Shown here piece after piece: positions 25,227-60,669 of a DNA stretch of 64,000 bases. The stretch comes from Chitinophaga sp. MM2321 (lineage in GTDB: Bacteria > Bacteroidota > Bacteroidia > Chitinophagales > Chitinophagaceae), in NCBI RefSeq assembly GCF_964033635.1, contig NZ_OZ035533.1:3162001-3226000 (forward strand), in the 5' to 3' direction. The notes under the pieces were generated by a model. The model saw only the letters and a program-made list of their open reading frames with translations, was not told the DNA's origin and searched no databases. Both the position numbers and the translations under genes were made by a program. The stretch's first letter is position 1, and every line of letters starts with the position of its first letter.

Positions 25227-25249
25227 TCTTATTCAACAATCAACGACAA

Positions 25250-26914: not shown

Positions 26915-26920
26915 GTCAAT

Positions 26921-28108: not shown

Positions 28109-28166
28109 CGCGTAGTGCACAAAGCCTTTTCATATCGTTTTTTATTACACCCTCAATAAATATGTT

Positions 28167-30753: not shown

Positions 30754-30765
30754 ATTAATTTTAAA

Positions 30766-31689: not shown

Positions 31690-31701
31690 GTAAAATCTTA
31701 T

Positions 31702-33216
31702 TTATTGCATTAAGGGATTGGTATCTATTTCGCGTTGCGGAATCGGGAAAAAATAAGCACCGCTGGTAATGGTTTTACCATATTGCTGCACCAGCACTTT
31801 TTCTATGCTGTTGGTTCTCCGCAGATCAAACAAACGATCGCCTTCAAAGGCCATTTCCAGGCAGCGTTCTTTGATCACGGCATCGCGGAAAGCCTGCACA
31901 CCCAATGAGGGATTCAGGTCACCGATACCGGCCCTGTTGCGCACCTTATTCACAGCGGCATAACCATCCGTTGTCGGGCCGCTGGCTTCAGCCAGCACCA
32001 GCAGGATATCGGAATACCGGATGATCGGTGAATTGGCGCTGGACGCATCACCGATGCGGGCAGGATCAATAAACTTACGCGAAAAAGGACGGGAGCTGCT
32101 GTTGATGTCCAGCTGATAAGTATTGCCACCATTGGTATACTGCGATACGATGAGCTGCGATTTGCGTTTATCGGCATTGGCAAAGTTGGCATAAAATCCG
32201 GCTTCGGTGCGGAAGTGTCCCCAACCCTGACCTATATTGGTAGGCGCACTGGCGGGGTCCAGGGCATCATACAAAATAGTCATAGGCCGGTCTGCCGGCA
32301 GGAACATATTCGGCAATTTGGAGAAGCTGCCTTCGCGGTCGCCGCTACGATCTACTGCGGCATCAAAGATGTGTTCTGTAACAGCCGCTTTCTTGTAGAT
32401 ATCAATGTTATAAATATCCGGAAGACTGTTTGTAAAATTAAACGTGGTTTGTTCGTTGATCACTTTACCGGCGTACAATTTCGCCTGTGTATACATTTCA
32501 TCTGCATTGGCAACAAATTCATAACCGGGTGCGCCGGATACTTTCGCTGAAGCCAGGTATAGGTATACCTTTGCCAGCAAACCCTGTACAGCAGGCTTGT
32601 TAGCACGACCTTCGCTGATCCGTTCTTTGGTAATAAGTCCTTCCGCTGCTTTCAGGTCGCTGATAACCTGGTCATACACATCACTGATGGAAGACAATGC
32701 TATAGGTATCTGCGAAGCGTTTTCAATGGTGGTAGTCCGCAGTGGTACTTTACCAAACATACGTACCAGGTTGAAGAAATGCAGGGCCCTTAAAAAATGG
32801 GCTTCACCGGTGATCTGATTGCGTTCCGTTTCGTCCATACCGGGAATGCCAGGCACATTGCTGATAACGGCATTTGCACGGGCTACACCGCGGTACATAT
32901 AGGTCCAGATATTATCCAGGTCTGAGTTGGTGGAAGTAGTTCTCCATTCATCCAGTTCCAGGTTACCTACGCCCGCATCGCCTTTCTGAGAAAGGATTTC
33001 AGTAGGCAGTTCTGTAACGATGTAATATCCTCTTGAATAATATCCTACTTCCGGTAATATAGCGTAAGCATAGATAATAGCCGACCGGGCATCATCTGCT
33101 GTTTTATAAAAAGTTTTGGAGTTGATCATACCGTATGGCTGTTCCTCCATTTTAGAACAACCACTGCACAGGGCTATACTGATCAGTGCTGTTAATGTAT
33201 ATTTTCTGAATATCAT
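31702..33216 (-). CDS. SusD/RagB-family glycan-binding lipoprotein
   Basis: 504 residues. Lipoprotein signal (LCSGC, Cys20). Mostly helical TPR-like fold with the family's hallmarks: HFLRALHFFNLVRMFGKVPL, YSDILLVLAEA and the ending region KERCLEMAFEGDRLFDLRR with FPIPQREIDTN. SusD caps the SusC channel and delivers oligosaccharides to it. It is encoded 18 bases after susC and is the first of three lipoproteins in a row. Substrate inferred as beta-mannan from the neighbouring GH26, GH5-like and GH130 enzymes. Confidence 0.95.
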   Translation of the reverse strand: MIFRKYTLTALISIALCSGCSKMEEQPYGMINSKTFYKTADDARSAIIYAYAILPEVGYYSRGYYIVTELPTEILSQKGDAGVGNLELDEWRTTSTNSDLDNIWTYMYRGVARANAVISNVPGIPGMDETERNQITGEAHFLRALHFFNLVRMFGKVPLRTTTIENASQIPIALSSISDVYDQVISDLKAAEGLITKERISEGRANKPAVQGLLAKVYLYLASAKVSGAPGYEFVANADEMYTQAKLYAGKVINEQTTFNFTNSLPDIYNIDIYKKAAVTEHIFDAAVDRSGDREGSFSKLPNMFLPADRPMTILYDALDPASAPTNIGQGWGHFRTEAGFYANFANADKRKSQLIVSQYTNGGNTYQLDINSSSRPFSRKFIDPARIGDASSANSPIIRYSDILLVLAEASGPTTDGYAAVNKVRNRAGIGDLNPSLGVQAFRDAVIKERCLEMAFEGDRLFDLRRTNSIEKVLVQQYGKTITSGAYFFPIPQREIDTNPLMQ

Positions 33217-33234
33217 GACTGTTTTTTTGGCGGA

Positions 33235-36200: not shown

Positions 36201-36306
36201 GATCATCGTACACGCTTCCTGTAATCTTTTTCTGTTGCGCATTGGCAACGAAGGCATGGAGGAATAAAGTAAGGAGCATAATACAGCATGCAATGAAATT
36301 TTTCAT
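33235..36306 (-). CDS. SusC/RagA-family TonB-dependent outer-membrane transporter (mannan locus)
   Basis: 1023 residues. Signal peptide ~1-23 (HAFVANAQ). Residues ~27-105 form a carboxypeptidase-regulatory-like domain (ITGSVYDDQANPLAGASVAL), ~115-225 the plug (SDLTGSVATIKGSDL, DDIESIEVLKDASSAAIYGSRG), then a 22-strand barrel ending in YPRPRAVSLGLNVIF. No STN domain, so it does not signal to a FecR. Energised by TonB/ExbBD, it imports manno-oligosaccharides delivered by SusD. First gene of a five-gene unit to 28832. A TACATTTG -7 box lies 39 bases upstream. Confidence 0.95.
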   Translation of the reverse strand: MKNFIACCIMLLTLFLHAFVANAQQKKITGSVYDDQANPLAGASVALKDTKVATISDANGKFTLNAPPEAHTLVITYLGMLKKEIALGSQTSFSINLQPSPGNLNNVVVIGYGTVKKSDLTGSVATIKGSDLNRTTASSVDQLLQGKIAGVQVTTSGGQPGAGATIRIRGASSLNGSKDPLLVVDGYPWGDAGNLKQINPDDIESIEVLKDASSAAIYGSRGANGVIVITTRKGKKGQARITFSTLQTVSFRANKPDIWRDPVEDATYANEAAITGGAIATDVPYIGISRPVGNGMVYFPSIAELRGLDPNKPKWPFNTDWVNEVYRNPLSQNYTLTADGGNEKTRYAISGNYYDEQGMVIKNGYKKYTSRLNLEQQLSKAITAGTNVILAYTNNQGQQLGVGRSRIFPVYDSTGSFFRTSNTDFGNPVALANQLLNKSKTTDILGNIYLNIKILPWLQFHTQLNSKFGNSVQDLYDPKNSTQRALDNKGSYGAIANANYTDLLTENYFTATKDFGKDHRASLVAGYSFQKSENRFSNLTGQNFVNDVLTNENLATAGTMLISNDLQRFNLSSWYGRGNYAYKDRYLLTITARADGSTKFGSDNKWAFFPSGALAWKAGEEDFIRNLGLFSELKFRGSYGYTGNQGISPYQTLDRYGSNKYYTGSVFETGFGPGLAGANDEQGRTIVAGLGNNALKWETTKSLDVGVDIGFFNQRLTFTADYYIKHTNNLLRLKTIAPSAGYDRQWINDGEIENRGIELGLNANIINSRDLNWSVGGLFTKNRNKVLSMGESNQVMIGTLYESVRQQISTYTVDQPMFAFYGYKTDGIIQTLDEGIKTGLTGVDAQPGEIKYLDISGPAGEPDGIIDSYDRTIIGNPNPDFFYSFNTNLKYKQFDLSLQLYGVQGGDVWDFQKMTPSRQLQRWTPDNPSNEYPRANATRGYRASDFYMTDGSFLRIQNVTIGYNLSPETIKYIKSLRLYLSANNLYTFTGFNKGFDPEVGESGINNGAYPRPRAVSLGLNVIF

Positions 36307-36344: not shown

Positions 36345-36352
36345 CAAATGTA
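36345..36352 (-). promoter_or_regulatory. candidate -7 box of the susC operon
   Basis: TACATTTG on the minus strand, followed by TCTATATT, 39 bases before the ATG at 36306. No TTTG at -33. The octamer and the next bases resemble those before the GH5 gene. Confidence 0.5.
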
Positions 36353-36602: not shown

Positions 36603-39167
36603 CTATACCACTCGTCCCATAGCCGGGTCTGTAAAGCTGTCGCGACCTGTTTCCACATGCCCTCCAAATCGCCGCTCAAAATGGGTGAAGCCATCTATCA
36701 GAATACTGAAATCGTACCATCCGTGATTTTTGCCAAGATCCAGTACAATACTGGACGATTGGTTCCCGGAAAGCACTTTCCGGATAGTTTTATGCTGATA
36801 TGCGTTATCTTTTATTTCCACTGTATAATTGCCCGTATGATGGCTGCTGAGTGTTAATGTCAGGTTACCTGTCAGCTTTTTTCCCAGGCTCCTGGCCCGT
36901 TCGTACTCGCAGGCAATGGTAACTACCGGATCTGCTGTATTGCCTTTCACTTCACGGAAGAAGCCATTGGGGCCATATGTGCGCAGGTGATAAATACCGT
37001 TTTCAAAGGAGGCTACCGGCCACGCATCGCTGATATTATCGCCTGCCCGCACTGCGTAGGAGCGGCTTCCGGCAGCTTCAAAAGCTTCTTCGCCGCTTCC
37101 GGATTTTTGCAGGTATTTGCCAGGGAAATGTACATTAAAGGGCGCCCCTGCGGCCTGCGCTCCGAAAATTTCATTGCCTGCCCGGAACACCAGTGCAATA
37201 CTTTTTTTATCTGCACTGAGTTTGCTGTCGACATACAACTGATAGGGTGACGGACAAGCAGGCCGGATACCGGATTCCTGCCGGGGCATAGCCTTTGAAG
37301 AAGCCGGAGCATGATTGATCTCTGCTATTTCCTCCCGGGTCAGAGATTTAAAATCATCCGGATCTTTCTTGAATTTTGCGCTATTGATTTTTTCAATAAA
37401 AGGATCTTTTTTCAGAAAGGGAAGTGTGTCAATCTTCGCCCCGTTATACGGCTTGAACACAGCCGTCAGATCACCGGTTATTGTCCGGCGCCATGTGCTG
37501 ATATTTTCTTCACGTATATCTTTGCCAAATTTTTTGTTCAGGAATTTTTCCAGGAACTGTAAGGTGGAGGTATGATCATATACTTCGGAACATACATTGC
37601 CCCCTCTCGTCCATGGTGAGGCCACAATGAGCGGCACACGGAAGCCTAATCCTATGGGACCACCGCGGGCTTCCCTTTTTGGTATTTCTTCCGCCAGTTC
37701 CTGTTCCAGTGTAATGTATTCCACGGTAGTATCTATCCCATCCGAACATTTTCCGGAGTCCGCGTTAAGGGGATCAGGCGCTACAAACGGTGGCACATGA
37801 TCGAAATAACCATCATTCTCATCGTAGGTGAGGATAACGATTGTTTTTTTCCATACTTCCGGATTTTTGGTAAGAATATCCAATACTTCCGATACATACA
37901 ACTGGCCATACCAGGGCGCACTGGGATGATCCGAAAAATTCTGTGCCCCTGCCAACCATGATACCGTAGGTAGTTTGCCGTTATCTACATCCTCCCGGAA
38001 CTGATGCAACACGTCTCCTTTAGGAACAAAAGTCTGCCGTTTAGTATCGCCATCTGTATAATCAAGCGTAGTGATCTCATGAAAATGCGGGTCGCCGGCG
38101 TTTGTTGTAAATGCATTATTGTACAGGTCTTTTTCTGCCTGTGATAATTTTTCAAAATTCTCCGGTGTAAATGTAACCAGGTCTTTTTGCGCGGTGGCCA
38201 GTACTTCCTGTTTTTTTGCGATGGCCGTCTTCGTCTTTTGATAAGCATCGCTTCCCTGCGACAGAGAAGCAAGCTTTGCTTCCAGCTCTTTGATCTCACC
38301 GGGAAGTGTTGCTGTTTGTTTTTGCAATGCCTGGATATAACGGGGAGAAAACTTTACTGCGTAGCTGGCAAACCATTCCAAAGGATTACAGCCGAAGTTG
38401 GCCAGCCAGGCTCTTTCTTCACCAGTAAATCCGCCGCCTGTGTCGATATCGTTTTGATAAAATTTCCAGGAGATGTTATTTTTTGCAAGACGTTCGGGAA
38501 ATGTATCGTATGTCAGATTGGCTATCCGCCAGTTCCCCAGGTTCCGGATAAAAGTTCTTCCCCCCTGATCCGGCTTTTCCCTGATGGTACCGGTCCAGAA
38601 AAATAACCGGTTGGGATTAGTGCTGGTCATAGCAGAGCAGAAGTTTTGGTCGCATATGGTAAATGCATCTGCCAGCGCATAATTGAAAGGAATATCTTCG
38701 CGGGTATAATGTCCGAGGGTCATCGGAATATTCGCATATTTTTTATCATAAGGCTGTTTGGCTATCAGCCACTGGTCGTATTTACCCAGATTAAAAGCAT
38801 CTACCTGGCTTGACCGGGAATGAGGCGTAGATCCCATCCAGGTAGCTTTGGTATCCTTCATATCAAATCTGAAGGGGGTATATGTTTCGCCGGCAGCATT
38901 GGTTTGCAGCCATACCAGGTTTTTATTGGGTAAGGTAATGGCCCGTGGATCGTTGAATCCACGTACGCCCTGCAACGTGCCGAAGCAGTGATCAAAAGAA
39001 CGGTTTTCCTGCATGAGGACCACTACATGCTCCGCATCCATGAAAGTGCTGCCCGGTTGTGGGTTAATGGCCAGCGCCCGTTGGATAGAAGCCGGTAATA
39101 TACCGGAGATACCCGCTGCACCCGACAGCAGCATACTCTTTTTTAGAAAATCTCTTCTTGAATCCAT
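36603..39167 (-). CDS. phosphocholine-specific phospholipase C, Tat-exported
   Basis: 854 residues. Twin-arginine signal (SRRDFLKKS, then a hydrophobic run ending QRALA). Phosphoesterase domain to ~560: VVVLMQENRSFDHCFGTL, CSAMTSTNPNRLFFWTG, ILTYDENDGYFDHVPP, and the late SPWTRGG region, all acid-phosphatase/PLC features that bind metal. Two C-terminal beta domains of the DUF756 type follow (~620-710, ~740-830). The family hydrolyses phosphatidylcholine and often sphingomyelin, releasing phosphocholine. Starts 25 bases after the PIG-L gene and is the last gene of the FecI-led SusC/D operon, which is unusual company for a phospholipase. Confidence 0.9.
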   Translation of the reverse strand: MDSRRDFLKKSMLLSGAAGISGILPASIQRALAINPQPGSTFMDAEHVVVLMQENRSFDHCFGTLQGVRGFNDPRAITLPNKNLVWLQTNAAGETYTPFRFDMKDTKATWMGSTPHSRSSQVDAFNLGKYDQWLIAKQPYDKKYANIPMTLGHYTREDIPFNYALADAFTICDQNFCSAMTSTNPNRLFFWTGTIREKPDQGGRTFIRNLGNWRIANLTYDTFPERLAKNNISWKFYQNDIDTGGGFTGEERAWLANFGCNPLEWFASYAVKFSPRYIQALQKQTATLPGEIKELEAKLASLSQGSDAYQKTKTAIAKKQEVLATAQKDLVTFTPENFEKLSQAEKDLYNNAFTTNAGDPHFHEITTLDYTDGDTKRQTFVPKGDVLHQFREDVDNGKLPTVSWLAGAQNFSDHPSAPWYGQLYVSEVLDILTKNPEVWKKTIVILTYDENDGYFDHVPPFVAPDPLNADSGKCSDGIDTTVEYITLEQELAEEIPKREARGGPIGLGFRVPLIVASPWTRGGNVCSEVYDHTSTLQFLEKFLNKKFGKDIREENISTWRRTITGDLTAVFKPYNGAKIDTLPFLKKDPFIEKINSAKFKKDPDDFKSLTREEIAEINHAPASSKAMPRQESGIRPACPSPYQLYVDSKLSADKKSIALVFRAGNEIFGAQAAGAPFNVHFPGKYLQKSGSGEEAFEAAGSRSYAVRAGDNISDAWPVASFENGIYHLRTYGPNGFFREVKGNTADPVVTIACEYERARSLGKKLTGNLTLTLSSHHTGNYTVEIKDNAYQHKTIRKVLSGNQSSSIVLDLGKNHGWYDFSILIDGFTHFERRFGGHVETGRDSFTDPAMGRVV

Positions 39168-39192
39168 AATTCTTAAGTTAATGTTTATTTCT

Positions 39193-39951
39193 TCAGGAAA
39201 TAATTAAACCACCTTGTTGCTTTCCGTTCATCCTGACAAAAGCCTCTCCTGCTTTTACACCTAATTCCTGTCCTCTGAATATTTCCATAGCAGCATGCCC
39301 GCGGCTATATATTTTATCAGGATGCTGACTGGTGTGACAGTACACTGCTTTTCTTTTTTGTTCCTGCGTGTCGCTGATATCCACATAGTCGGTAGGATGA
39401 AAAATCATTGTCTGATCGCCGGTCAGCACTTCGAAAAAATAGAGCGAGAATTTTTGCTGCATCTTCCTCCATGCCTGTATTGTCAACAGGCTGGCCGCCT
39501 GGTGATCCGGATGTGTATCCACAGGCCAATGCGCGAATACGATATCCGGCTGCTCCGCTTCGAGCAATGCCTGTATTTTATTTATCCATTCGTTATTGAC
39601 GATTGTTTCCCCATCTGTTTGTCCTGCAAACACCGGCCTGGCTTTCAGCACACGACATGCATTGATAGCTTCCTGTTTCCTCACAGCAGCAGCTTCGGCA
39701 TGTGAACTGCCGCGGATACCACCTTCTCCCTGTGTTAAATAAATGATTGTTATGTCATGACCAGCATTGGCAAGTCTTGCCAGGGTACCGCCACAACCGG
39801 TTTCAGGGTCATCCGGATGCCCGCCTACGCAAACAATTTTCCGTTGATTTATTTTCGCACCGGCTTGTGCCTGCAACAGGGATGGAAGGGATAAAAAGCC
39901 TGCACCCGCTATTGTATTTTTTATAAATGTGCGACGATTGTTTGCTGACAT
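39193..39951 (-). CDS. PIG-L-family deacetylase, Tat-exported
   Basis: 252 residues. Twin-arginine signal (NRRTFIKNT; hydrophobic stretch to QAQA). Seen: the metal/catalytic motif H45-P-D-D48 with PETGCGGT, and a second metal motif HPDHQAAS. These zinc enzymes remove N-acetyl groups, as in GlcNAc-phosphatidylinositol, GlcNAc-Ins or chitobiose derivatives. Encoded between a GH127-like enzyme (44 bases) and phospholipase C (25 bases). An N-acetylated sugar in the target glycan, perhaps linked to a lipid, is the simplest inference. Confidence 0.88.
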   Translation of the reverse strand: MSANNRRTFIKNTIAGAGFLSLPSLLQAQAGAKINQRKIVCVGGHPDDPETGCGGTLARLANAGHDITIIYLTQGEGGIRGSSHAEAAAVRKQEAINACRVLKARPVFAGQTDGETIVNNEWINKIQALLEAEQPDIVFAHWPVDTHPDHQAASLLTIQAWRKMQQKFSLYFFEVLTGDQTMIFHPTDYVDISDTQEQKRKAVYCHTSQHPDKIYSRGHAAMEIFRGQELGVKAGEAFVRMNGKQQGGLIIS

Positions 39952-39995
39952 ACTTTAGTCTGATTTTTTAAATGAATATATTCATCACGATCTTT

Positions 39996-41936
39996 TCAAT
40001 GCTTTCTTGGATCATACAATTGCGGCATCCATACCTGGAAAGTAGCAGGCACCTTCCCATTTCCTGCGGAGGCATAATCACATAACGTAATCTGCGCAGG
40101 CTTGGGTGCTTCCGTAGCATCCTTATAAAATTCCGGGAAAAAGGCTGCCTGGTATTGCAGCCAAATATTATCCGTAGATGCTGATGCCGGTGTAAGCGTA
40201 ATGTATCCTTCTTTATCCTTTGCCGGCGTGTTCGTAGTGCCAAGGTCCGGGCCCGGCAGCCGCGTATCGCGGGCCAGCACAACAGGGCCTCTCAGTATGG
40301 CCGCATATTGATGATCGGTGCCTTGTGTAATTACCCGGCCACGCATGTCGAGTTGGAGAGAAATAACATCTTTCGCCGTCCATACTTTTTTCAATGTTGC
40401 ATATTCTCCGGGTGTAACCGGGATAGTTTCGTCATTTATCTTCAGCGTCGTTTGCCTGCTCCATGCAGGAATCCTGATGCGTATCATCATTTCTTCCGGT
40501 GCATCCATGGCCATGCTGAGATTGATCTTTCCTGAAACAGGATAATCTGTTTGCTGCAACAGGGTTACTTTTTTCCCTGAAGGCGTTTTCAACACGTAAG
40601 ATCCTTCCACAAAAAAGTTGACCGACAATCCTTCTTTCATCGACATGACAGTGGTGAGTGGCAGCGTAAACTGACCGCGCGGACCACTTGCAACGCAGCA
40701 ATTCAGCTCCATGCCGCATTGCCCGCTTCCCGGCAGCCGCTCACCGTTCAATGGTGTGTATTTCGCCCAATCCGAGCCATCAGCATTCAACGCGCCCATT
40801 AAGGCATTGTAATAGGCTTCCTCGATGGCGTGCGCATATTTTACGTTGCCGGTAAGGCGTAACAATTGCTGACTGAATTTTATCCAGGTCACCGTAACAC
40901 AGGTTTCCTGGTAATGAACCACGGGAGAGGTTTGTAGTTTTTTCCCGCCGAACCACATTTCATAAGAAGCACCTGAACCGGCGATATTGATCTCGGTATC
41001 GCGGATATTGTTCCAGGTATCTTCTGCTGCTTTCAGATGTTCTTTCTTTCCGGTAACCCGGTATAATTCGATCAGCCCTTCGTAACACGACATCATCTCG
41101 TATGCTTTCTGTCCCTGATCCCAGCTATACCAGGATTCCGGTTTGGGAAAACGTTCGCTTACATTTACACCCGCTTTGCTGATCAGCATCGGACCGCCAG
41201 GTGTTTCCCATTGCGCCACGATCTTTTCTGCAAATGCGAGATATTTTTTATCCCCGGTAAGACTATACAAGCGCACAATGCCCTCCAGGATGGAGGATGC
41301 TGCCATGCCCCGGTAGTTTCCTTTATTCACGATAATACCGTCTTTCTCATTGATCTCCCGGATCAGGTGATCGGTCAATTTGCGAGCGGCCCGGAGACTA
41401 TTGGTATCACCGGTAAGATCGTGATAGTCCAGCAGGCCAAGCAGGCAATATTTCCGGCCCCATATATCCCATTGTTCCAGGCGGTTTTCCGGCTTATAAT
41501 TCCCGATGTAGCCATCTGGTGTTTGCGTAGCTATCAGGTCTTTCACGGCAGTTTGCAATACCTTTTTCAGGGCAGGCTCCGGGCGGTACTTATAAGCCAG
41601 CACGGCCGAAGTGAACCATTTCCCCCAGAATTCTGTTTGCCATAAACGTGTTTCTGTCCGATGTCTGAAAGGTGTTACCAGGGTATTTACATCCTGGGCG
41701 AGGATCCTGTTCTGATAAGACAGGTCCAGCTTTCTGCCAATAAATCCTTTCATGACAGCACTTTCCGATGGCTGCAAATAATCCCGCATGCCGCTGCCTG
41801 TATCAGAAGAAAGAAAAGAAGCGCCTCCCAGCGCCTGGCGGGATGCAAACAGTAAGCCGGCGGCAACCACGCCGCTGTTCCGGATAAAGCTTCTTCTTGA
41901 AAGTTCACTGCATTGACTTGTTCGATTAACACTCAT
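39996..41936 (-). CDS. GH127-like beta-L-arabinofuranosidase (DUF1680), Tat-exported
   Basis: 646 residues. Twin-arginine motif (SRRSFIRNS) and hydrophobic run to about residue 37. (alpha/alpha)6 barrel with HYQETCVTVTW: Glu344 and Cys346 match the Glu338/Cys340 pair of the Bifidobacterium GH127 enzyme HypBA1, and Cys413-Cys414 (LNCCVASG) match Cys417/Cys418; together they hold zinc, with one Cys as nucleophile. The CC is followed by VASGPRG where many relatives have PPN, so substrate preference may differ. Downstream beta domains include LPGSGQCGMEL. It could act on other furanosides or 3-C-carboxy-sugars (GH127/146/142-type). Same operon as PIG-L and PLC. Confidence 0.83.
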   Translation of the reverse strand: MSVNRTSQCSELSRRSFIRNSGVVAAGLLFASRQALGGASFLSSDTGSGMRDYLQPSESAVMKGFIGRKLDLSYQNRILAQDVNTLVTPFRHRTETRLWQTEFWGKWFTSAVLAYKYRPEPALKKVLQTAVKDLIATQTPDGYIGNYKPENRLEQWDIWGRKYCLLGLLDYHDLTGDTNSLRAARKLTDHLIREINEKDGIIVNKGNYRGMAASSILEGIVRLYSLTGDKKYLAFAEKIVAQWETPGGPMLISKAGVNVSERFPKPESWYSWDQGQKAYEMMSCYEGLIELYRVTGKKEHLKAAEDTWNNIRDTEINIAGSGASYEMWFGGKKLQTSPVVHYQETCVTVTWIKFSQQLLRLTGNVKYAHAIEEAYYNALMGALNADGSDWAKYTPLNGERLPGSGQCGMELNCCVASGPRGQFTLPLTTVMSMKEGLSVNFFVEGSYVLKTPSGKKVTLLQQTDYPVSGKINLSMAMDAPEEMMIRIRIPAWSRQTTLKINDETIPVTPGEYATLKKVWTAKDVISLQLDMRGRVITQGTDHQYAAILRGPVVLARDTRLPGPDLGTTNTPAKDKEGYITLTPASASTDNIWLQYQAAFFPEFYKDATEAPKPAQITLCDYASAGNGKVPATFQVWMPQLYDPRKH

Positions 41937-41960
41937 GGTACAATAAGGTAAAATATTTTT

Positions 41961-43028
41961 TTATTTTTTTATAATCGCTTTTCTTATTCCCTGTAAAAGA
42001 CTATCTCCCAGGATCTTTGAAGGCGTGAGCCACCCCCCTTCCCCATTTTCATTCCAGGCATACAATAAGGCGATGCGTTCTTTTGGTGTTTGCCCGGGAT
42101 GCTGTGCTATCCATTCCTGCAGCGCAGTGATATCATTGTAAACGGACTGCTGTGAGTAGCCGGTGAAGCGTTGCACCACTTCATCTGTTTTTCTCCAGGG
42201 GCGCGGGTCCCAGTTTAAAGTGGCCACGGGGATATAGGGTAAGGAGGTAGTACCACTGATCTTTTCCCATATGCTACGATCGCCGGCGAGCATTTGTTGA
42301 ATGGGATTTTCTGCCTGACCCGGCGTAAAGCCTACTACATGATAATTGTAACCGGTGAGTATATCAAACCCGCAGGCTTCTGCGTCACGTACTTCTGAGG
42401 GCCCTACGCAAACCGCCATCGTTCCCCCTTTCAGCCCTTCCGCTACTGCAACATGCCTGAGCGAATCCAGCGCCTTGTGCACTGCCGCCGCATCACCAAA
42501 TTCCGTTACGAGCGAAGAAACACTGAAGAAGATCAGCAAGGGTTTTTCATTCACTTTCAGATAGGTAGGGTCCTTGAAAAGTTTGATCCATTGTCCTGTA
42601 AGGGTTTTCCAGCTTTGAGGTGTGGTTAGATAAGGTTTATGATTGGCTACCATCAGGCAAAACTTTAGCCGCTGCTTGTTTGGCGCGTCCAGATATAAGC
42701 TCAGGGCATTGTTCAGGGGTATATTACTTAACCCTTCCCTGTAATACCAATCGAAGCTGAAGAATTGAATGCCTGCATCTGCAGCGGCATCAATCTGTTT
42801 TTTCATAATATCGGGTGTGCTGGTTACCCAGCCCCATATGGGTTCCCGCTCGGGGAACCCATTCTTCAGCAATGGTGTGATATGATGTGACCCTTCGGTC
42901 CAACCGTCAAAATAATAGGCGCCGAGGTTTATAGCCGGCCCCTTCATATGATTAACGGATTTACCCTGAGCGAGATCCTTTTTACAACTCAACAGTATCA
43001 AGGCCCCCAGGAGAAAATATCTGATCAT
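41961..43028 (-). CDS. GH99/WbsX-like glycan-acting lipoprotein
   Basis: 355 residues from the ATG at 43028, which gives a lipoprotein signal (LLGALILLSC, Cys15); a start at 43061 is less likely. TIM-barrel pattern of the GH99-like/WbsX group: LGAYYFDGW, PIWGWVTSTPDIMKKQIDAA, IQFFSFDWYY, EKPLLIFFSV, GYNYHV, and the ending RIALLYAWNENGEGGWL with an acidic pair. Such proteins are endo-mannosidase relatives or putative glycosyl hydrolases found in rhamnogalacturonan and other PULs. Starts 98 bases after SusD, with a hairpin in the gap. Exact substrate unknown. Confidence 0.78.
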   Translation of the reverse strand: MIRYFLLGALILLSCKKDLAQGKSVNHMKGPAINLGAYYFDGWTEGSHHITPLLKNGFPEREPIWGWVTSTPDIMKKQIDAAADAGIQFFSFDWYYREGLSNIPLNNALSLYLDAPNKQRLKFCLMVANHKPYLTTPQSWKTLTGQWIKLFKDPTYLKVNEKPLLIFFSVSSLVTEFGDAAAVHKALDSLRHVAVAEGLKGGTMAVCVGPSEVRDAEACGFDILTGYNYHVVGFTPGQAENPIQQMLAGDRSIWEKISGTTSLPYIPVATLNWDPRPWRKTDEVVQRFTGYSQQSVYNDITALQEWIAQHPGQTPKERIALLYAWNENGEGGWLTPSKILGDSLLQGIRKAIIKK

Positions 43029-43088
43029 CGTAATAGATTTAAATACATACTGAAGCAGCAAAACCGTTCAGCTATGCAGTGATAGTTT

Positions 43089-43111
43089 GCAATGCCCGGA
43101 TAGGGCATTGC
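43089..43111 (-). promoter_or_regulatory. intra-operon hairpin between susD and the GH99-like gene
   Basis: A perfect 9-bp stem, GCAATGCCC / GGGCATTGC, with a 5-base loop, 14 bases after the susD stop. No T-run on the minus strand. Likely an mRNA-stability or partial-termination element that lowers expression of the downstream enzymes relative to susCD. Confidence 0.55.
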
Positions 43112-43125
43112 TTTGATCATTCATT

Positions 43126-44910
43126 TTAAAGGCCCTGGTAGCCCGGGTTTTCAACAAGGTTTGGATCTATTCCTATCCGGCCGGGCGTTATCGGGAAATA
43201 ATAGTTGGCATCATAAAAACGTGGATCACTGGTAGACCCATCCATTTTAGGAATGACGGTTATTTTGTACTTGCCGGTATTAGCATCGTGGATATATCGC
43301 AGACCTGTACGGTTAACAGTAAGTACAGACTTTGCCACCCTCCATCTCCGGAGATCCCAGTAACGGTGACCTTCGAAGGCGAGTTCCACCTGTCTTTCAT
43401 GCCGGATCTTGTCGCGGTCTATCGCATCCAGCTTTTTTATTCCTGCTCTCAGCCTCACCTGATTTACCGCATCCAACGCATCATTCGACTTTCCAAGATT
43501 GAATGCCGCCTCTGCGTAGTTGAGCAGTACTTCTCCATAACGGAATATGATCCAGTCCTGTTGAGAAGTGGTGAAATCACCGAGGTTGTTATGTTTCTCG
43601 TCAAGATATTTCAGCACGCCAAAGCCGGTCTTCATCGTAGAAGGTCCTTTACCCAGCACGCCGTTATAGGAATCAGTAGTGATGCTTCCGTCCGGCTTTA
43701 CGATGCCGTTATGGCAATCCAGGATGATGCCTTGCCAGGCAGTATTCAAAGTATATATGCTTGCATAAAAGCGGGGATCTTTGTTGGCCCACAGCTCATC
43801 TGTTGTCCATAGTTTGCTTTGAAGCAAAGTGCGGTCCAGTGTACCCGGCGTGCCATCTGCTTTCTCGAATGCTTCGGCTGTTTCCAGGTAAGGGCCGTCG
43901 TTGTTTCCCTGTGCCCATGCATTGGGAGTAGGACATTGCATAAAGTCGTATGTCCAGCCGCCGCCGCCCTGATCGCAACTGATCTGATCATGTGGTCTTA
44001 CAAAGATCCTTTCCGGGTTATCATTTTCATCCAGGAAAACGTCTTTGAAGTTGGCTATCTTATCCGGGTTTTTATCGTACAGTTTGAATAGTCCGCTCTT
44101 GATGATCTTGTCTGCAGCATCGTAAGCAAGCTGGTAATATGCATTCGTTTTACCTGCATCAATACCCACTACGCCTTCTATCTGTACGGTTCCGAATTTT
44201 GCAATGCTGGCAGCATAGAGGGCAGCCCTGCTTTTCAATGCCCATACCGCAAACTGGGAAGGTCTTCCCACTTCCGTAGCAGGACGGGAAGGCGGCAGGT
44301 CGGCCTGGATAGCATCACATTCAGACAGGATGAAGTCATAAATCTCCTGCTCTTTTGCGCGCTTCGGATACAGGCTTTCATGAGGATCAGTGATCTGTTG
44401 AGGTACCAGGATGAGCGGAACACCGCCGTAACGTTTTACCATCGCGAAATAGGCAAATGCCCTGAGAAACCGGGCTTCCGCCACCCTGCCTTTTTTGAAC
44501 GCATCATCTACCGGTGATTCAGGCACGCGCTGTATAAATTCATTCAACACACGTATGGTGGAATAGGCAGACTCCCACCATTCCAGCATACCACCGGAAC
44601 TTCTTATGCCGCCCTGTTTGAATGCATTGGCATTACCCGCCCACGTATGATTGGAGATGCATTCATCGCTTACGCAATTTAACATCAGCATCGTAAAGTG
44701 GTTGCCCGAACTGGAAATGTGGTGATCGTTATCATTATCAAAAACGAACATCCCCATATAAGCGTTCGTAAGATATGCTTCTATCAGCGCCTGGTCATTC
44801 CATACCACTTTATCTGTAATGATGTCCAGCGGGGCTTTGTCCAATACTTCCCTGGTACAGGATGTAGCAGCCACCAGCGTGATTATAAGGATTGAGATTA
44901 TCTTTCTCAT
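43126..44910 (-). CDS. SusD/RagB-family glycan-binding lipoprotein (FecI-led operon)
   Basis: 594 residues. Lipoprotein signal (LVAATSC, Cys18). Family hallmarks: ARFLRAFAYFAMVKRYGGVPLIL, IIFRYGEVLLNYAEA, ALDAVNQVRLRAGIKKL, and ERQVELAFEGHRYWDLRRW, with YYFPITPGRIGIDPN at the end. Larger than the mannan-locus SusD (594 against 504 residues). Binds the oligosaccharide and lids the SusC channel. Encoded 26 bases after susC. Confidence 0.95.
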   Translation of the reverse strand: MRKIISILIITLVAATSCTREVLDKAPLDIITDKVVWNDQALIEAYLTNAYMGMFVFDNDNDHHISSSGNHFTMLMLNCVSDECISNHTWAGNANAFKQGGIRSSGGMLEWWESAYSTIRVLNEFIQRVPESPVDDAFKKGRVAEARFLRAFAYFAMVKRYGGVPLILVPQQITDPHESLYPKRAKEQEIYDFILSECDAIQADLPPSRPATEVGRPSQFAVWALKSRAALYAASIAKFGTVQIEGVVGIDAGKTNAYYQLAYDAADKIIKSGLFKLYDKNPDKIANFKDVFLDENDNPERIFVRPHDQISCDQGGGGWTYDFMQCPTPNAWAQGNNDGPYLETAEAFEKADGTPGTLDRTLLQSKLWTTDELWANKDPRFYASIYTLNTAWQGIILDCHNGIVKPDGSITTDSYNGVLGKGPSTMKTGFGVLKYLDEKHNNLGDFTTSQQDWIIFRYGEVLLNYAEAAFNLGKSNDALDAVNQVRLRAGIKKLDAIDRDKIRHERQVELAFEGHRYWDLRRWRVAKSVLTVNRTGLRYIHDANTGKYKITVIPKMDGSTSDPRFYDANYYFPITPGRIGIDPNLVENPGYQGL

Positions 44911-44936
44911 GAATATTCTTTTATCGTTGAAATAAT

Positions 44937-47900
44937 TTAGAATGAAACATTAGCACCAATACTGATGGTCCGCTGTTGCGGGTAATAGAAAGTGCCGTTC
45001 ATCCCCGATGGTGCTTCCGGATCAAGTCCGTATTTTTTCAGCTTATCGAAAGTCACCAGGTTGGTGCCTGCCACATACAACCGGGCCTGGACCAGTTTTA
45101 CTGCCTGCGCCCATCTTTGCGGAAGGTTATAGCCCAGGGACAAAGTTTTCAGCCGCAGGTATCCCGCTTTTTTATAGCGGTAATCTGAAAAGCCGGCTCC
45201 TTTACCCCCCAGTCTGGGTACTAATGCATTCCCATTATTATTCTCTTCTGTCCATCTTTCATTATATAAAACAGTTGTGTACACGCTACCAAGAGACACA
45301 TTAACGTCTTTATAGTAACCAAATGCTCCCTGGAAGAGGGCGGAAAGATCGAAGTCCTTATATTTTAAATTTGTACTAAAGCCAAACATCCAGTGAGGCG
45401 TAGCGCCTTTACCGATCAGCCACTGGTCCTGCCAGTTAAGTATTGAATCGGGGACCATATCTTTATACCGGAGATCGCCGGGGCGCAGGGATGAATTTGG
45501 AGCGGCCGTATTACCATCCTGGTTGAATCCCAGGTCGTCGATCTCCTTCTGACTGGTGAACAGGCCATCAGACAGATAACCGAATACTTCATCGGTCCAG
45601 CGACCGGATTTCTGATTGATTCTTTTCTGTTGCGGGTCATTATTATAATCAGGTTCTTCGTAGTGCATCCACTTCGACCTTGACCATGAAATATTGCCGC
45701 TTACATTCCATACCAGGTCGTTAAGACGGCCGGTGGTACCCAGTTCCAGTTCAAAGCCCCTGTTGTTTAAACTATTGAGATTTTGTGGAGGCAATGTAGC
45801 CCCGAAGCTGGCTGGCAGGGTGGTGATAGCAGTAGCCGGAATCCCGGTTTCTTCGCGATAAAACACATCTCCTGTTCCATACAGTTTGCCTTTCCAGAGA
45901 GAAAATTCAAAACCGGCATTGTATATCTTGATCTTTTCCCAGGTGAGGTTTGGATTAGCCAGCCCCTTTGATATTAAAGCCGGTACAGACCCGCTGTTAC
46001 CAAACAGGTAAGACAATCCGGTTACACCATTAGAGGCTATCTGATAGCCTGTCAGGTACTGGAAATTACCTACGCCGTCATCGCCGGAGGTTCCGTAACT
46101 GGCCCGCAGTTTCAGCTCATCAAGATTTCTGAGGCGCTTCATAAAGTTTTCTTCCGTTAGCCGCCAGCCAAGGGAAATGCTGGGGAAATATCCCCATCTT
46201 TCGCTAGCAGGAAACTTGGCAGAAGCATCTGCCCTGATAGAAGATTCCAGCAGATATTTATCTTTATAAGAATAATTCAGTCGTCCTACATAACTGGCCC
46301 TTCCCATTTCGGAAGCGGAACCGTTGTTGCTCATGCCGCTCAAACTTCCGGCATACAACTGATCGATAGCGTCGGTCATGAAATCCTGCCGCCTTGCAGA
46401 CAGATAATCGTTGTAATAATCGATCACTTCATAAAGCGCCAGCACACGCAGATGGTGGTCAGTTGCAATTGTTTTATCATAGTTCAGCGACATCTGACCG
46501 GTAATGGTTCTGCTCTTTGTATCCGTAACCGTCATGTTTGCACGCGCATTATAGGAACCCGCCTGCGTATAAGTTTGTGTACTGTAATCGTAGGTAAAGT
46601 ATTTATATGGCTTCTCGAAAACTGTTCCAGTGGTATAATTCTGGGCATAGTTCATAAATATTTTTGCAGAGAGCCCTTCAACAGCGTGCGACTGGTATGT
46701 GAGGGCCATGGTGCCCCTGAGGTCCTGTGATACAGATTTAGCATATCCTGCAATATCCATGTTGGTGGTCATTTGAGCACCACCGGTTCCACCGCCGTCG
46801 GCAAAGGAGTTTTTGTCCGGATCAGGCAATGCAGCGGGATAAGTAGGTAAAGTACGCCAGAAGTCTTCCCAGGCGGCCGTTTTTGTTGCGCTTGTACTGG
46901 CCAGGCGCGGGGGATATTTCCGTTTTCCAACAGACGAATACAGGTCAAGTTGTAAAGAGAAATTATCCGAAATTTTTGCATCAACATTCGACATCAGGTT
47001 ATAGCGATTGTAATTGCTACCGCTTTTTTTCCAAAGCGTTCCCTGGTCTTCATAACCAAAAAATCCATAGTATTTTATCTTTTCAGAACCTCCCCTTACA
47101 GCAATATTATGCTGCCACATCGGCGCCCAATCGCGGATCAGTTCATCATACCAGTTGGTATTGGGGTATTGCGGATCTGTTCCTGCATAATACTTTTGTA
47201 TCTGTTCGGGCGTATAAGGAGCATTGGCTTCGGGTTGCCCGGACTGGATATAGGCTTCCCTGGCCAGTTCCGCCTGCTGGCCGGCATTCACAGGCTTGGG
47301 CATCATGGTAATGCCCTGCATGCTGTAGGAGCTGTTCAGCGTGATGACAGGCTTGCCGAGCTGGCCTCTTTTTGTCGTGATTAATATTACACCGTTGCCT
47401 GCACGCGAGCCATAGATGGATGCTGCGCCGTCTTTCAGAATAGAAATAGATGCAATCTGGTTAGGATCAAGGGTATTAAAATCGGCTTCCACACCGTCAA
47501 CAATTATAAGTGCATCTCCAAAGCCACGGATACTCAGCTTGGCCGCATCAAAGCCTGGTTGTCCGCTTGACTGCAATGATACCAGCCCTGGCAGGCGGCC
47601 CGCGAGACTGTTCGCCACACTAGCTACCGGCGCTACACTCAGTTGTTCCCCTTTCACGGAAGCGATGGATCCTGTAATACTTTCTCTTTTCTGCGTACCA
47701 TAACCTACAACCACTACTTCATCCAGCCCTGAAGAGGAAGCTGTTAACCGGATGAGGAGACTGGCCTGGTTGCCCGGGGATATTTCCTGGGTTTGGTAGC
47801 CGATAAAAGAAACAGTCAGTACAGCGTTTTCGGGAATCAACAGGGTAAATTTACCGTCGGCATCTGTGGTGATACCCTGCGCGGTACCTTTCACCTGAAC

Positions 47901-48335
47901 GGTTACACCGGGTAGCGGCGTTCCTTTCTCATCCAGCACCGTGCCCTGTATCTTATGCTGACTGGAAAGGTCGTCACGGGGTGAAATCACCACCATGTTA
48001 CTGTCTACAATCCTGTAGTAGAGGGAACTTCCCAGCACATTATCCAGGACTTGCTCCAGGGTAGCCTGTTTTACACTGATACTTACAGGAGCAAGATGCT
48101 TCAGGTTTTTTTCATTGTAAAAGAAACGATAACTGCTCTGACGCTGTATTTTGGTGAGTACCTGGTCTACCCCCACTTTATCCATTTTTAGCGTGAAAGT
48201 TTCCTGTGGATATACTTTGGCGGAAATCTGAAGGCAGCATAGAAGGACGAGCGGGAAGGTTAGCTTCATACATCGTACAAGTTTACGGACCAATCCATCG
48301 CCCTGTGAGAGGGATGACTGTAATTTTTTTTTCAT
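44937..48335 (-). CDS. SusC/RagA-family TonB-dependent transporter with STN domain
   Basis: 1132 residues from the ATG at 48335; a start at 48401 would add 22 residues of no known type. The hydrophobic signal lies at ~23-40 (MKLTFPLVLLCCLQISAK). An STN/secretin-like domain follows (FTLKMDKVGVDQVLTKIQRQ, ~48-120), the part that contacts FecR in the periplasm. Then the CarboxypepD_reg domain (IQGTVLDEKGTPLPGVTVQV), the plug (ITGSIASVKGEQLSV, ILKDGAASIYGSRAGNGVILI) and the barrel ending in RTISIGANVSF. Fits the cell-surface signalling scheme: loaded receptor to FecR to sigma factor to this operon. Confidence 0.94.
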   Translation of the reverse strand: MKKKLQSSLSQGDGLVRKLVRCMKLTFPLVLLCCLQISAKVYPQETFTLKMDKVGVDQVLTKIQRQSSYRFFYNEKNLKHLAPVSISVKQATLEQVLDNVLGSSLYYRIVDSNMVVISPRDDLSSQHKIQGTVLDEKGTPLPGVTVQVKGTAQGITTDADGKFTLLIPENAVLTVSFIGYQTQEISPGNQASLLIRLTASSSGLDEVVVVGYGTQKRESITGSIASVKGEQLSVAPVASVANSLAGRLPGLVSLQSSGQPGFDAAKLSIRGFGDALIIVDGVEADFNTLDPNQIASISILKDGAASIYGSRAGNGVILITTKRGQLGKPVITLNSSYSMQGITMMPKPVNAGQQAELAREAYIQSGQPEANAPYTPEQIQKYYAGTDPQYPNTNWYDELIRDWAPMWQHNIAVRGGSEKIKYYGFFGYEDQGTLWKKSGSNYNRYNLMSNVDAKISDNFSLQLDLYSSVGKRKYPPRLASTSATKTAAWEDFWRTLPTYPAALPDPDKNSFADGGGTGGAQMTTNMDIAGYAKSVSQDLRGTMALTYQSHAVEGLSAKIFMNYAQNYTTGTVFEKPYKYFTYDYSTQTYTQAGSYNARANMTVTDTKSRTITGQMSLNYDKTIATDHHLRVLALYEVIDYYNDYLSARRQDFMTDAIDQLYAGSLSGMSNNGSASEMGRASYVGRLNYSYKDKYLLESSIRADASAKFPASERWGYFPSISLGWRLTEENFMKRLRNLDELKLRASYGTSGDDGVGNFQYLTGYQIASNGVTGLSYLFGNSGSVPALISKGLANPNLTWEKIKIYNAGFEFSLWKGKLYGTGDVFYREETGIPATAITTLPASFGATLPPQNLNSLNNRGFELELGTTGRLNDLVWNVSGNISWSRSKWMHYEEPDYNNDPQQKRINQKSGRWTDEVFGYLSDGLFTSQKEIDDLGFNQDGNTAAPNSSLRPGDLRYKDMVPDSILNWQDQWLIGKGATPHWMFGFSTNLKYKDFDLSALFQGAFGYYKDVNVSLGSVYTTVLYNERWTEENNNGNALVPRLGGKGAGFSDYRYKKAGYLRLKTLSLGYNLPQRWAQAVKLVQARLYVAGTNLVTFDKLKKYGLDPEAPSGMNGTFYYPQQRTISIGANVSF

Positions 48336-48410
48336 ATTTTTGCTTTGAGATTGAATATTTGGAGCAGGCATGCTGTCAACGTCCCATGCTCCTTTATACA
48401 TTTCAGACTA

Positions 48411-48440
48411 AGGGGAAAGCTGCACGCTTTTCCCTTTTTT
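48411..48440 (+). terminator. hairpin with T-run in the gap upstream of susC (plus-strand reading)
   Basis: AGGGGAAAGC / GCTTTTCCCT pair at 9 of 10 positions around a 5-base loop, followed by a run of six T. As read, it would stop plus-strand (antisense) transcription; in the minus-strand leader of susC it could form a hairpin without a T-run, acting as an mRNA structure in the FecR-susC gap. Confidence 0.4.
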
Positions 48441-48579
48441 ATTTTACGTTACCCGGGTAGCGGGTGTGGCAAATGGAATGGCCTATGTATTCTTGTAAAA
48501 GAACATACACCCTTCAACGTGGAAGTATTCATGTCGGTATTGGTTTGGTTGATATACGCTAATTTTATTTATCAATAAA

Positions 48580-49680
48580 TTACTGGCTAAGGAAAACAGT
48601 GTCGTGCTGTATCCGGTAATGGAAAGGCGTTGCCATCTGTAGCACATTTAAGGCCTTCCCTATATTTTCGTTTTCAAATGTGCCATTCAGGCTTTCATTT
48701 TTTAGTAGTGTATCTGTAAATTGGATGGTGACCCCATAACGTCTTTCCATTCTTTTGGCTAAAGCGTCGAATGGTTCGTTGAGGAAAGTCAGCTTATCAT
48801 CCAGCCAGGCAACTTCCCTGATTTGCGCATCCTTCCGCGGCGACACATCCTGAACCTGGAAACTCAGTGCTTCCTGTCCTTCGGGCGCCTTTGGCCTGAC
48901 GAAAACTTTATTAATAACAGTCAGCTTTTCATTAGGTGTCAGTGTAATTTCGTGATCCGGCTTTCCGTCAATCTGTACCTGTACTTTTCCTTTTATCAGG
49001 GTTGTTTCTATGCGGCCTTCGTGGGGATAGGCCTGCACATTAAATTCCGTACCCAGTACCTTGATCACAACGTTGCCTACATGCACCAGGAAAGGATGGG
49101 CTTCATCATGTTTCACATCAAAATAGGCTTCCCCGTCGAGGAATACTTCACGTTTGTTGAGGATAAAATTGCTGGCATAACGGATGGAACTTCCGGCATT
49201 GAGCCACACTGTTGAGCCGTCTGGCAATATTGTTTTTTCAGGTGCGCCATGTGGCAGGCTTACCTGCTTCAGGACGGCAACAGCAGTTCCCGCTGCATGT
49301 TGCTTTGCTGCGTAGTTCCACCATAAAAAGGAACCGCCGGCTATCGCTGCTATACCAGTCCAGATGGCAGCATAACGAAGCCATTGTACCCGTGATTGCC
49401 GGATGTGTTTTATACGCTCCCCGCCTGCTGTTGCTTCAGCGGTCGTTTGCATTCCAACCAACTCATGCTGAAGTTTTGACCAATTCTCCTGTATTAGCTT
49501 TTCCTTATCTGCTGCGGATTCCTCCGCTGGTCTTACCGCTTCAATGTTATGCAACATTTCTATGAAGGATTGCTGTTCGGGGTGCCGTAACAACAATTCC
49601 TTTAATTCGGCCATTTCACTGTCCGACATAGCTTTCCCCATTGCTTTTGCAAGTAAGCGGAGTGTTTTTTCTGCTTCCAT
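48580..49680 (-). CDS. FecR-family anti-sigma factor
   Basis: 366 residues. The cytoplasmic N-terminal ~95 residues bind the sigma factor; a membrane helix lies at ~100-122 (WLRYAAIWTGIAAIAGGSFLWW); the periplasmic part begins with the FecR domain (VSLPHGAPEKTILPDGSTVWLNAGSS, RKVFLDGEAYF-like, VLGTEFNV) and ends in a DUF4974 module (ALAKRMERRYGVTIQFTD). Encoded between the sigma gene (55 bases upstream) and susC. The STN domain of the adjacent SusC is its expected partner. Confidence 0.93.
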   Translation of the reverse strand: MEAEKTLRLLAKAMGKAMSDSEMAELKELLLRHPEQQSFIEMLHNIEAVRPAEESAADKEKLIQENWSKLQHELVGMQTTAEATAGGERIKHIRQSRVQWLRYAAIWTGIAAIAGGSFLWWNYAAKQHAAGTAVAVLKQVSLPHGAPEKTILPDGSTVWLNAGSSIRYASNFILNKREVFLDGEAYFDVKHDEAHPFLVHVGNVVIKVLGTEFNVQAYPHEGRIETTLIKGKVQVQIDGKPDHEITLTPNEKLTVINKVFVRPKAPEGQEALSFQVQDVSPRKDAQIREVAWLDDKLTFLNEPFDALAKRMERRYGVTIQFTDTLLKNESLNGTFENENIGKALNVLQMATPFHYRIQHDTVFLSQ

Positions 49681-49735
49681 AATCGTGACTTAACCTAAGC
49701 TGTTCTATATAGGAAACATTTTTTGGTAAAACTCC

Positions 49736-50350
49736 TTAAGGCTGGAACAACTTTTTTTTGGGGAGGGATGAACCAGCAGAAGATTTAGAAGGTGGTGTGG
49801 GTTTGGCGGTGTAATCCTGCCATACCGAATGGAGGGCAAAGGAGAGCTTTTTCAGGGCCAGGTAAAGCTGTGTATCTACTGTTTTTACAGATATATCAAG
49901 GATGGCAGCGACTTCCTTGTAGCTCAGGCCATCTTCCTTAATGAGCTTAAAGACCAGCTTGCATCGCGTTGGCAGTTGCGCTACCGCTTCCCGGATGCGG
50001 GCCTGTAATTCCCGGTTAATCAGCACTGATTCAGGGTTTATGGAAAGCTGCAATTGCTGTTGTGGTAGTTCGTCGATAGGAATCAGCAATCCTGTTTTCT
50101 TTTTTCGCAAAGAATTACAGGCAGCATTTCTGACGGACACATAGAGATATACACTGATGTTCTCAATTGTTTCCAGCGTTTCCCGCTGTTGCCAGAGTCT
50201 TAAAAAAACGTCATGGACTACTTCTTCTGCAATTTCCTTTGATTGCACATAACTATAGGCAAACTGGTACAACTGATAAAAAAATGACTCGTATAGTTGC
50301 TGGAATGCTGTTTGGTCGTCACGCTGTATTCTTTGCAAAAGATCAATCAT
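49736..50350 (-). CDS. ECF RNA polymerase sigma factor, FecI-like
   Basis: 204 residues from the ATG at 50350; a TTG two codons earlier also opens the frame. Region 2: FQQLYESFFYQLYQFAYSYV and EEVVHDVFLRLW. Region 4: QLPTRCKLVFKLIKEDGLSYKEVAAILDISVKTVDTQLYLALKKL. The Pro/Ser/Lys-rich tail (TPPSKSSAGSSLPKKK) is unusual but short. The FecR gene follows. It is expected to drive the SusC/D operon and perhaps its own gene when the receptor is loaded. Confidence 0.93.
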   Translation of the reverse strand: MIDLLQRIQRDDQTAFQQLYESFFYQLYQFAYSYVQSKEIAEEVVHDVFLRLWQQRETLETIENISVYLYVSVRNAACNSLRKKKTGLLIPIDELPQQQLQLSINPESVLINRELQARIREAVAQLPTRCKLVFKLIKEDGLSYKEVAAILDISVKTVDTQLYLALKKLSFALHSVWQDYTAKPTPPSKSSAGSSLPKKKLFQP

Positions 50351-50636
50351 CGGCAAAAAAATCTGATCCCAATATAGGGATAAATATTTTAGAAAGATCC
50401 AAATTATTTCCCGGACAACCGCCTTAGCAGAGAAAGCACATTCATTAAGATAAAAGTATAATGGTATTCCGTACGCTGCTAATATTTCGAAAGTAACACA
50501 TTGGTTTCATCCATAGAAAGGATTTCAGTTTGGACACCACTATCTTCTCTTCATATATTATTTACATAAATATAAATGTCAATTATCCTGCTTAATTCAA
50601 AATTGTTTATTTTCAGTGAAACATCGACTGTAAGCT

Positions 50637-56559: not shown

Positions 56560-56616
56560 CCGTACATAATTGTGTTGAAAAAATAAGTTTATCGTAACCG
56601 GGATTATCCTGGTATA

Positions 56617-57330: not shown

Positions 57331-57367
57331 TATTGATTTTTTAAACAGTTACAATTTTTTATTCCAT

Positions 57368-59128: not shown

Positions 59129-59162
59129 TTATATTCTATTTGAGCACAGGCAGTTTATAACA

Positions 59163-60629: not shown

Positions 60630-60669
60630 AATGATTCTTTTTGAATGCCTATAAAAACAGTTGATGCCA

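Follow-up and report, generated by a model that had tools for sequence, protein, structure and literature searches.

A window of 64,000 nucleotides from Chitinophaga sp. MM2321 (contig NZ_OZ035533.1, positions 3,162,001 to 3,226,000 of the forward strand) contains, on its minus strand at 36603-50356, eight genes that probably form a single operon of the polysaccharide utilisation locus (PUL) type. From the list of open reading frames and from family profiles we identified these, in order, as genes for an extracytoplasmic function (ECF) sigma factor, FecR, SusC with an STN domain, SusD, a WbsX-type protein, a GH127-type glycosidase, a PIG-L deacetylase and a phosphocholine-specific phospholipase C (PC-PLC, or PLC). 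The reading we put forward, which we regard as evenly poised, is that this is one PUL-type operon with a swapped enzyme cargo, acting on an N-acetylglucosamine (GlcNAc)-containing, phosphodiester-bearing glycan or glycolipid. It builds on findings established by computation, namely the identity and order of the genes, their conserved motifs and the signs of an operon, and on the rarity of the combination of SusC/D, WbsX, GH127, PIG-L and PLC.

All eight gene products score above the curated cut-offs for their families (Table 1), confirming the genes, their order and their common strand as given in a first-pass annotation of this DNA. With the open reading frame starts chosen here, the intergenic gaps measure 55, 178, 26, 64, 24, 44 and 25 bp in transcription order, and only 24-64 bp from SusC through PLC, so that the tight spacing reported earlier holds, with its range of 18-250 bases becoming 24-178 bp within the operon. 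The start taken for the ECF sigma gene is a TTG at 50356, and an alternative in-frame ATG at 50350 matches the coordinate of the first-pass annotation. As in a PUL, SusC and SusD adjoin, and two glycosidase-type genes lie directly behind SusD at gaps of 64 and 24 bp.

A terminator-like hairpin stands directly after the PLC stop codon and has the most G-C pairs among 30 hairpin candidates, where shuffling expects 15.0 (sd 4.5). Because the gaps are small and this hairpin follows PLC immediately, PLC is most likely the last gene of the ECF/SusC/D transcript. The gaps of 44 and 25 bp in front of PIG-L and PLC, together with the hairpin, thus argue for the earlier proposal that both belong to one transcription unit, and they lend no support to the converse suggestion of a PLC gene that is unlinked. 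The operon is therefore well supported by sequence and its eight genes are probably co-transcribed, with some room left for a separate promoter. A scan of the minus strand from 29 to 51 kb for TAnnTTTG, which we take to be the Bacteroidetes -7 box, returned 4 matches, of which 1 was intergenic (36352) and 3 lay within genes of the downstream locus. None fell inside the operon or 5' of the ECF gene, and since the box is missing 5' of the ECF gene too, its absence within the operon cannot exclude inner promoters.

Table 1 Features of the operon and its 3' boundary in the window.
Feature	Position	Strand	Evidence
ECF sigma factor (FecI-like)	49736..50356	-	TIGR02985 151.5 bits vs cut-off 126.4; Pfam sigma70 r2/r4
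FecR-type anti-sigma factor	48580..49680	-	PF04773 + PF16344; FecR score 60.6 vs 24
SusC-type TonB-dependent outer-membrane transporter, N-terminal STN signalling domain	44937..48401	-	TIGR04056 860.6 vs 368.25; STN 29.4 vs 28.4
SusD-type surface glycan-binding lipoprotein	43126..44910	-	PF07980 (SusD_RagB) 180.5 vs 23.1; 26 bp after SusC
GH99-fold WbsX-type protein, probable hydrolase, lipoprotein-like N-terminus	41961..43061	-	PF14307 62.4 vs 25.1
GH127-type six-hairpin glycosidase, twin-arginine signal	39996..41936	-	PF07944 138.4 vs 24.9; PF20736 middle domain 66 vs 24.2
PIG-L/LmbE-type deacetylase, twin-arginine signal	39193..39951	-	PF02585 97.3 vs 28.2
Phosphocholine-specific-type phospholipase C, twin-arginine signal	36603..39167	-	TIGR03396 771.1 vs 580.25; PF04185, PF05506
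Terminator-like hairpin directly 3' of the PLC stop codon	36564..36591	-	12 pairs, 9 G-C, loop 4
TAnnTTTG (-7 type) box 5' of next SusC; belongs to neighbouring locus, outside operon	36345..36352	-	pattern scan

The four enzyme genes behind SusD keep the conserved motifs of their families. The label 'GH99-like' given to the WbsX-type protein in the first-pass annotation is upheld by its predicted structure, which has a GH99-like fold, but not by the Pfam GH99 family (PF16317), for which it scores 21.3 against a cut-off of 33. In a structure comparison (VIA-align) the first-ranked match was 5ngw, labelled 'glycoside hydrolase-like protein', and the E-x-x-E pair of the window protein is intact. 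The same is true of motifs ETC-344 and NCC-412 of the GH127-type protein, which align with solved GH127-type chains, and of TNPNR-183, ENRSFDH-54 and DENDGYFDH-449 of the PLC, which align with solved PLCs; the roles of these catalytic motifs in the window enzymes we take as given. An assignment of the GH127-type protein as an aceric acid hydrolase (NF049879) was rejected at 129.5 against an equivalog cut-off of 950. The PIG-L protein has both metal motifs, HPDD-45 and HPDH-147, and these line up in the two alignments shown with its best solved relatives by sequence, which are 3we7, 3wl4, 8bgn and 8bgo (E 2.7e-24 to 8.7e-21, residues 36-243). The last two carry the name diacetylchitobiose deacetylase, and we take 3we7 and 3wl4 to be such enzymes as well. 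Since the nearest solved relatives are archaeal diacetylchitobiose deacetylases, the PIG-L family name is not to be read as activity in the glycosylphosphatidylinositol (GPI) pathway. Bacillithiol (BshB1/BshB2) and mycothiol (MshB/Mca) deacetylases were also considered and set aside on their scores (97.5 vs 182.5, 59.3 vs 195.25, 24.1 vs 224.35 and 24.8 vs 277.15).

We then compared loci with a related SusD, found at 1e-80 in 33 places besides the window's own, in 16 of 79 genomes of the genus and 15 of 294 of the family (own genome included). These counts are lower bounds, as the best 4 or 16 candidates were scored per genome; the family set (294) and a phylum set (395) are samples, and thresholds vary between searches. 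Among the 20 places that were read, labels place SusC next to SusD in all 20, with FecR close by in 19 and an ECF sigma factor in 14. A WbsX type follows SusD in three (L219, L220 and L221) and a GH127 type in two (L222 and L232), and Pfam confirmed three of these genes; other cargo in some of the loci includes rhamnosidase, GH5, GH2, GH141-like and metallophosphoesterase genes. In one further locus of the genus (L175), SusC/D, one GH127-type gene and a pair of WbsX-type genes follow each other directly. The recurrence of both types behind SusC/D means that the glycosidases fit PULs of this kind. The sensor-transporter core thus keeps its order while its cargo changes. In one of the related PULs (L219:4210-9702), four consecutive WbsX-type genes stand behind SusD, by label, one of them Pfam-confirmed.

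The individual cargo genes differ in how widely they occur. The WbsX lineage was found in 1/79 genus (1e-40), 3/294 family (1e-30) and 3/395 phylum genomes (1e-50), own genome included, and the window gene is the sole PF14307 gene of its genome. Its nearest relatives in the sampled genomes (38-53% identity) lie outside PULs. In the protein collection, a relative with 84% identity (P0003) is on a 19647-base ENA contig, and the collection copy of the window protein itself (P0001) begins at a later ATG (355 aa). GH127 relatives at 1e-120 occur in 10 of the 79 genus genomes. PIG-L was found in 1/79 at 1e-30, and matches at 1e-20 occur in 38 of the 294 sampled family genomes, with an identity of at least 58% in 32 of the 38; these counts, too, include the own genome. 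GH99-type WbsX relatives with signal-like N-termini were seen in polysaccharide synthesis clusters. One (L178) lies amid glycosyltransferases, with Wzy and flippase matches below cut-off and a canonical WbsX (411.7 bits) close by; another (L179) lies amid glycosyltransferase, sugar transferase, Wzy, flippase and Wzz genes, and two more (L216, L217) resemble them by eye.

Three of the enzymes carry twin-arginine (Tat) signals, SRRSFIRNS in GH127, NRRTFIKNT in PIG-L and SRRDFLKKS in PLC. Under a strict test limited to the first 60 residues, an RR-x-hydrophobic pattern is absent from all 36 other GH127 relatives. A wider test, extended to everything ahead of the aligned part, brought up a single RR pattern, that of L172 (MRRLFFLLVFPFAVQAQ), which is Sec-like by look. 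A looser Tat pattern was run on 40 GH127 rows, of which 4 were the window's own gene and were dropped from the later tests. The signal of the window GH127 therefore seems to have been altered to match its two downstream partners, as a sign of integration, not proof of it.

The PLC itself is the third copy in its genome, and all three pass TIGR03396. No other PLC of the genus genomes exceeds 61% identity to it, and the collection holds proteins at 64-69%. In a quick-method tree of 98 rows, made up of 37 from loci (36 of the genus and L073), the window protein and 60 of 120 listed collection proteins, with second copies of most genus genomes left out, the window PLC and the 60 collection proteins together make up a group of 61 rows (SH-aLRT 87; 98 for a 57-row core). 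This group contains no genus row out of the 36, among which are the genome's other copies L156 and L157, and the sampled genus PLCs form more than two clades. Recent duplication within the genus is unlikely, as the window PLC lies outside all 36 genus rows, and a different lineage is the probable source of the additional copy. One of the genome's other PC-PLC genes (L157:7980-16606) stands in a same-strand row led by an ECF sigma factor, FecR and an STN/carboxypeptidase-regulatory protein, with no SusC/D there.

The pair formed by PIG-L and PLC has a probable counterpart elsewhere. Among the matches listed (120 of 5942, from 8000 candidates scored), the nearest relative of the PLC is P0241, with 88% identity, which is also its sister in the quick-method tree (SH-aLRT 99); the two group with P0242 and P0244 (support 100). 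The tree sister of PIG-L is P0124 (79% identity; support 99/88, bootstrap not settled), third by identity behind P0122 (84%) and P0123 (83%). P0124 and P0241 are each listed from ENA on one 21601-base contig with 7 member sequences. Because size, source and member count are equal, the two very likely lie on one contig, so that a second organism probably has PIG-L and PLC linked as well.

Taken with the families of the encoded proteins, these observations suggest how the operon might work, and it is here that we infer co-regulation, cell location, order of action and substrate. A ligand bound at SusD/SusC would signal through STN, FecR and the ECF sigma factor to switch the operon on. The GH99-fold lipoprotein could make an endo cut at the outer membrane, SusC/SusD would then import the ligand, and three enzymes may finish the work in the periplasm after Tat export: the GH127-type glycosidase, the deacetylase, with terminal GlcNAc as its target, and the PLC, with the phosphodiester. 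The shared substrate would be a GlcNAc heteroglycan, with the phosphodiester present as a phosphocholine substituent or a lipid anchor. Since glycosidases, a GlcNAc deacetylase and a PLC-type phosphodiesterase would all be needed, the substrate is most likely a phosphodiester-bearing GlcNAc glycan, and the earlier suggestion of something other than a plain plant polysaccharide is a reasonable one, the substrates named with it (a glycosylated sphingolipid, a GPI-like molecule or a phosphocholine-decorated polysaccharide) being hypothetical. Candidates would be phosphocholine-substituted glycans and lipid-linked heads such as glycosylinositol phosphoceramides.

A number of results weigh against this reading. 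The first-pass annotation had named the absence of PLC and PIG-L from orthologous loci as a sign against it, and neither gene was found in the 20 related SusD loci read (of 33), although the probable pair in the second organism softens this. The 30 further loci examined comprised 23 GH127 and 7 PLC loci, and none of the 23 holds a PIG-L or PLC gene. The linkage in the second organism is read from equal contig sizes; P0122 and P0123 share no contig size with any PLC among the 120 of 5942 listed, and no WbsX among 120 listed of 613 is on the 21601-base contig. PIG-L orthologues at 58% identity or more, present in 32 of 41 loci scanned, stand apart from WbsX and GH127 in all 32, an absence of neighbours that is weak for the 4 loci on contigs under 8 kb. 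A SusC-type gene shares the stretch with the orthologue in three loci (L062, L073 and L075), none with the window's arrangement, and L073 has a PLC 4.4 kb from PIG-L with four genes between. All 79 genus genomes, the own one included, have PC-PLC (20 with a single match, 55 with two and 4 with three), which points to a general role; the two matches of one genome (G006) are pieces of a single gene. Composition does not mark PIG-L or PLC as foreign, GC content being much like the rest, with the PIG-L GC3 of 0.423 the lowest of the eight genes. Lastly, a sigma-70 consensus scan gave 41 sites in the region against 24.4 expected, including minus-strand sites inside PIG-L and PLC.

Some of the PIG-L loci deserve a separate word. 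In L062 the orthologue lies 5' of a FecR/SusC/SusD row on the same strand, with three genes between. In L073, from a family genome, the PIG-L gene is in two pieces (9844-10531), and we put its proximity to PLC down to chance in view of the broken gene and of four intervening genes on both strands. A scan of genome contigs yielded a single locus (L007), whose PIG-L is without a window-type partner.

It is possible, if doubtful, that the genes have expression in common but not a molecule, with mixed fungal or plant cell debris as food; the glycosidases and the deacetylase would then work on glycan, and the PLC would strip phosphocholine from membrane phospholipids for phosphate, choline and diacylglycerol. 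The presence of PC-PLC throughout the genus agrees with such a division of labour, as do the match of all three PLCs of this genome to the phosphocholine-specific model and the occurrence of PIG-L orthologues elsewhere without these partners. What it leaves unexplained is a third PLC, outside the sampled genus clades, 25 bp behind a PIG-L gene to which it is probably linked in a second organism, and also the Tat signal of GH127. The locus could, more narrowly, be a glycolipid utilisation locus that takes up and dismantles plant or fungal head groups of the glycosylinositol phosphoceramide or GPI type, which we think unlikely. The PLC would then cut the phosphodiester and the deacetylase would remove acetyl from the head GlcNAc present in Solanaceae, with the outer sugars left to the GH99-fold and GH127-type enzymes. 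According to one study, tomato lipid heads contain GlcNAc, and ions differing by one acetyl group were seen (PMC11496612), observations that make the lipid-head reading concrete without testing it. Literature searches found no SusC/D locus of the glycolipid-utilising kind, and, in the spelling 'utilization' (which misses 'utilisation'), no match for PULs with PIG-L/GH127, PC-PLC, WbsX (also WbsX with GH99-like), PIG-L deacetylase or glycosylinositol phosphorylceramide.

Quite unlikely, in our judgement, is a phosphate-utilisation system (PUS)-like role, in which SusC/D imports organic phosphorus, the PLC is the key enzyme and the glycosidases trim a phosphorylated glycan. Flavobacterium SusCD complexes induced by phosphate depletion do adjoin phosphodiesterases or a phosphatase, and one such cluster has a FecR-like regulator (PMC8115612); one related SusD locus (L231) carries a metallophosphoesterase. 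The same paper, however, sets PUSI and PUSII against PULs that bear carbohydrate-active enzymes (CAZymes), and the window operon has two glycosidase-type genes. Chance insertion seems very unlikely; in that case a WbsX/GH127 PUL already in place would have acquired PIG-L and PLC at its end, and both would be transcribed by read-through while having no function. Such an insertion would account for their absence from the related SusD loci read and sits well with the great variability of cargo across that group; yet the reading frames and motifs are intact, the terminator-like hairpin stands after PIG-L and PLC, and the pair seems linked elsewhere at 79-88% identity and so has probably been kept.

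Other glycan loci flank the operon. At 20892-36306 lies a second SusC/D pair with a DUF5018-like lipoprotein (below cut-off), GH26, GH5, GH130 and a hybrid two-component regulator, probably a separate locus for beta-mannan. We considered whether the PLC might belong to this downstream SusC/D set, and ruled this out by the hairpin, by the 296 bp, with a -7 type box, between the end of PLC and the next SusC, and by the GH26, GH5, GH130 and regulator genes that accompany that set. On the minus strand 5' of the operon (54103-63617), a cluster with GH95, three sulfatases and two GDSL-type esterase genes hints at a further locus, whose substrate may be a glycan that is fucosylated and sulfated.

PULs are read as carbohydrate machines. 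If the phosphodiester-bearing glycan or glycolipid is indeed the substrate, a PUL with its own co-exported phospholipase C and de-N-acetylase, in a compact four-enzyme set, would broaden the range of SusC/D substrates to glycans linked to a phosphodiester or a lipid, of which the debris of plants and fungi contains a large pool.

Compared with known systems, the window operon shares with PULs under ECF sigma/FecR and STN-SusC control the SusC/SusD pair, the ECF/FecR and STN components and glycosidase-type genes behind SusD, and differs by the PC-type phospholipase C and PIG-L deacetylase of its cargo, found in 0/20 of the related SusD loci read. Its WbsX protein, of family PF14307, has only 14-19% identity to GH99 endo-alpha-mannosidase/mannanase and stays below the GH99 cut-off. 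The archaeal diacetylchitobiose deacetylases are the closest solved kin of its PIG-L protein by sequence, with the metal motifs lined up in the two alignments shown, and the window protein differs from them by its export signal. As a member of the phosphocholine-specific phospholipases C (TIGR03396), the window PLC exceeds the model cut-off, with activity on phosphocholine lipids predicted only. Plant non-specific phospholipase C4 (NPC4, 8hav) is a distant sequence relative of this PLC (E 2.2e-12) and is reported in PMC11496612 to take part in hydrolysing glycosylinositol phosphoceramides under phosphate deficiency; that activity is reported for the plant enzyme, to which the bacterial PLC is likened by sequence alone. 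Finally, the Flavobacterium systems, as described in PMC8115612, resemble the window operon in placing SusCD near a phosphoesterase (the window PLC being the fourth gene behind SusD) and, in PUSII, in a FecR-like regulator, but use other phosphoesterase families and stand apart from CAZyme PULs, whereas the window operon carries glycosidase-type genes of its own.

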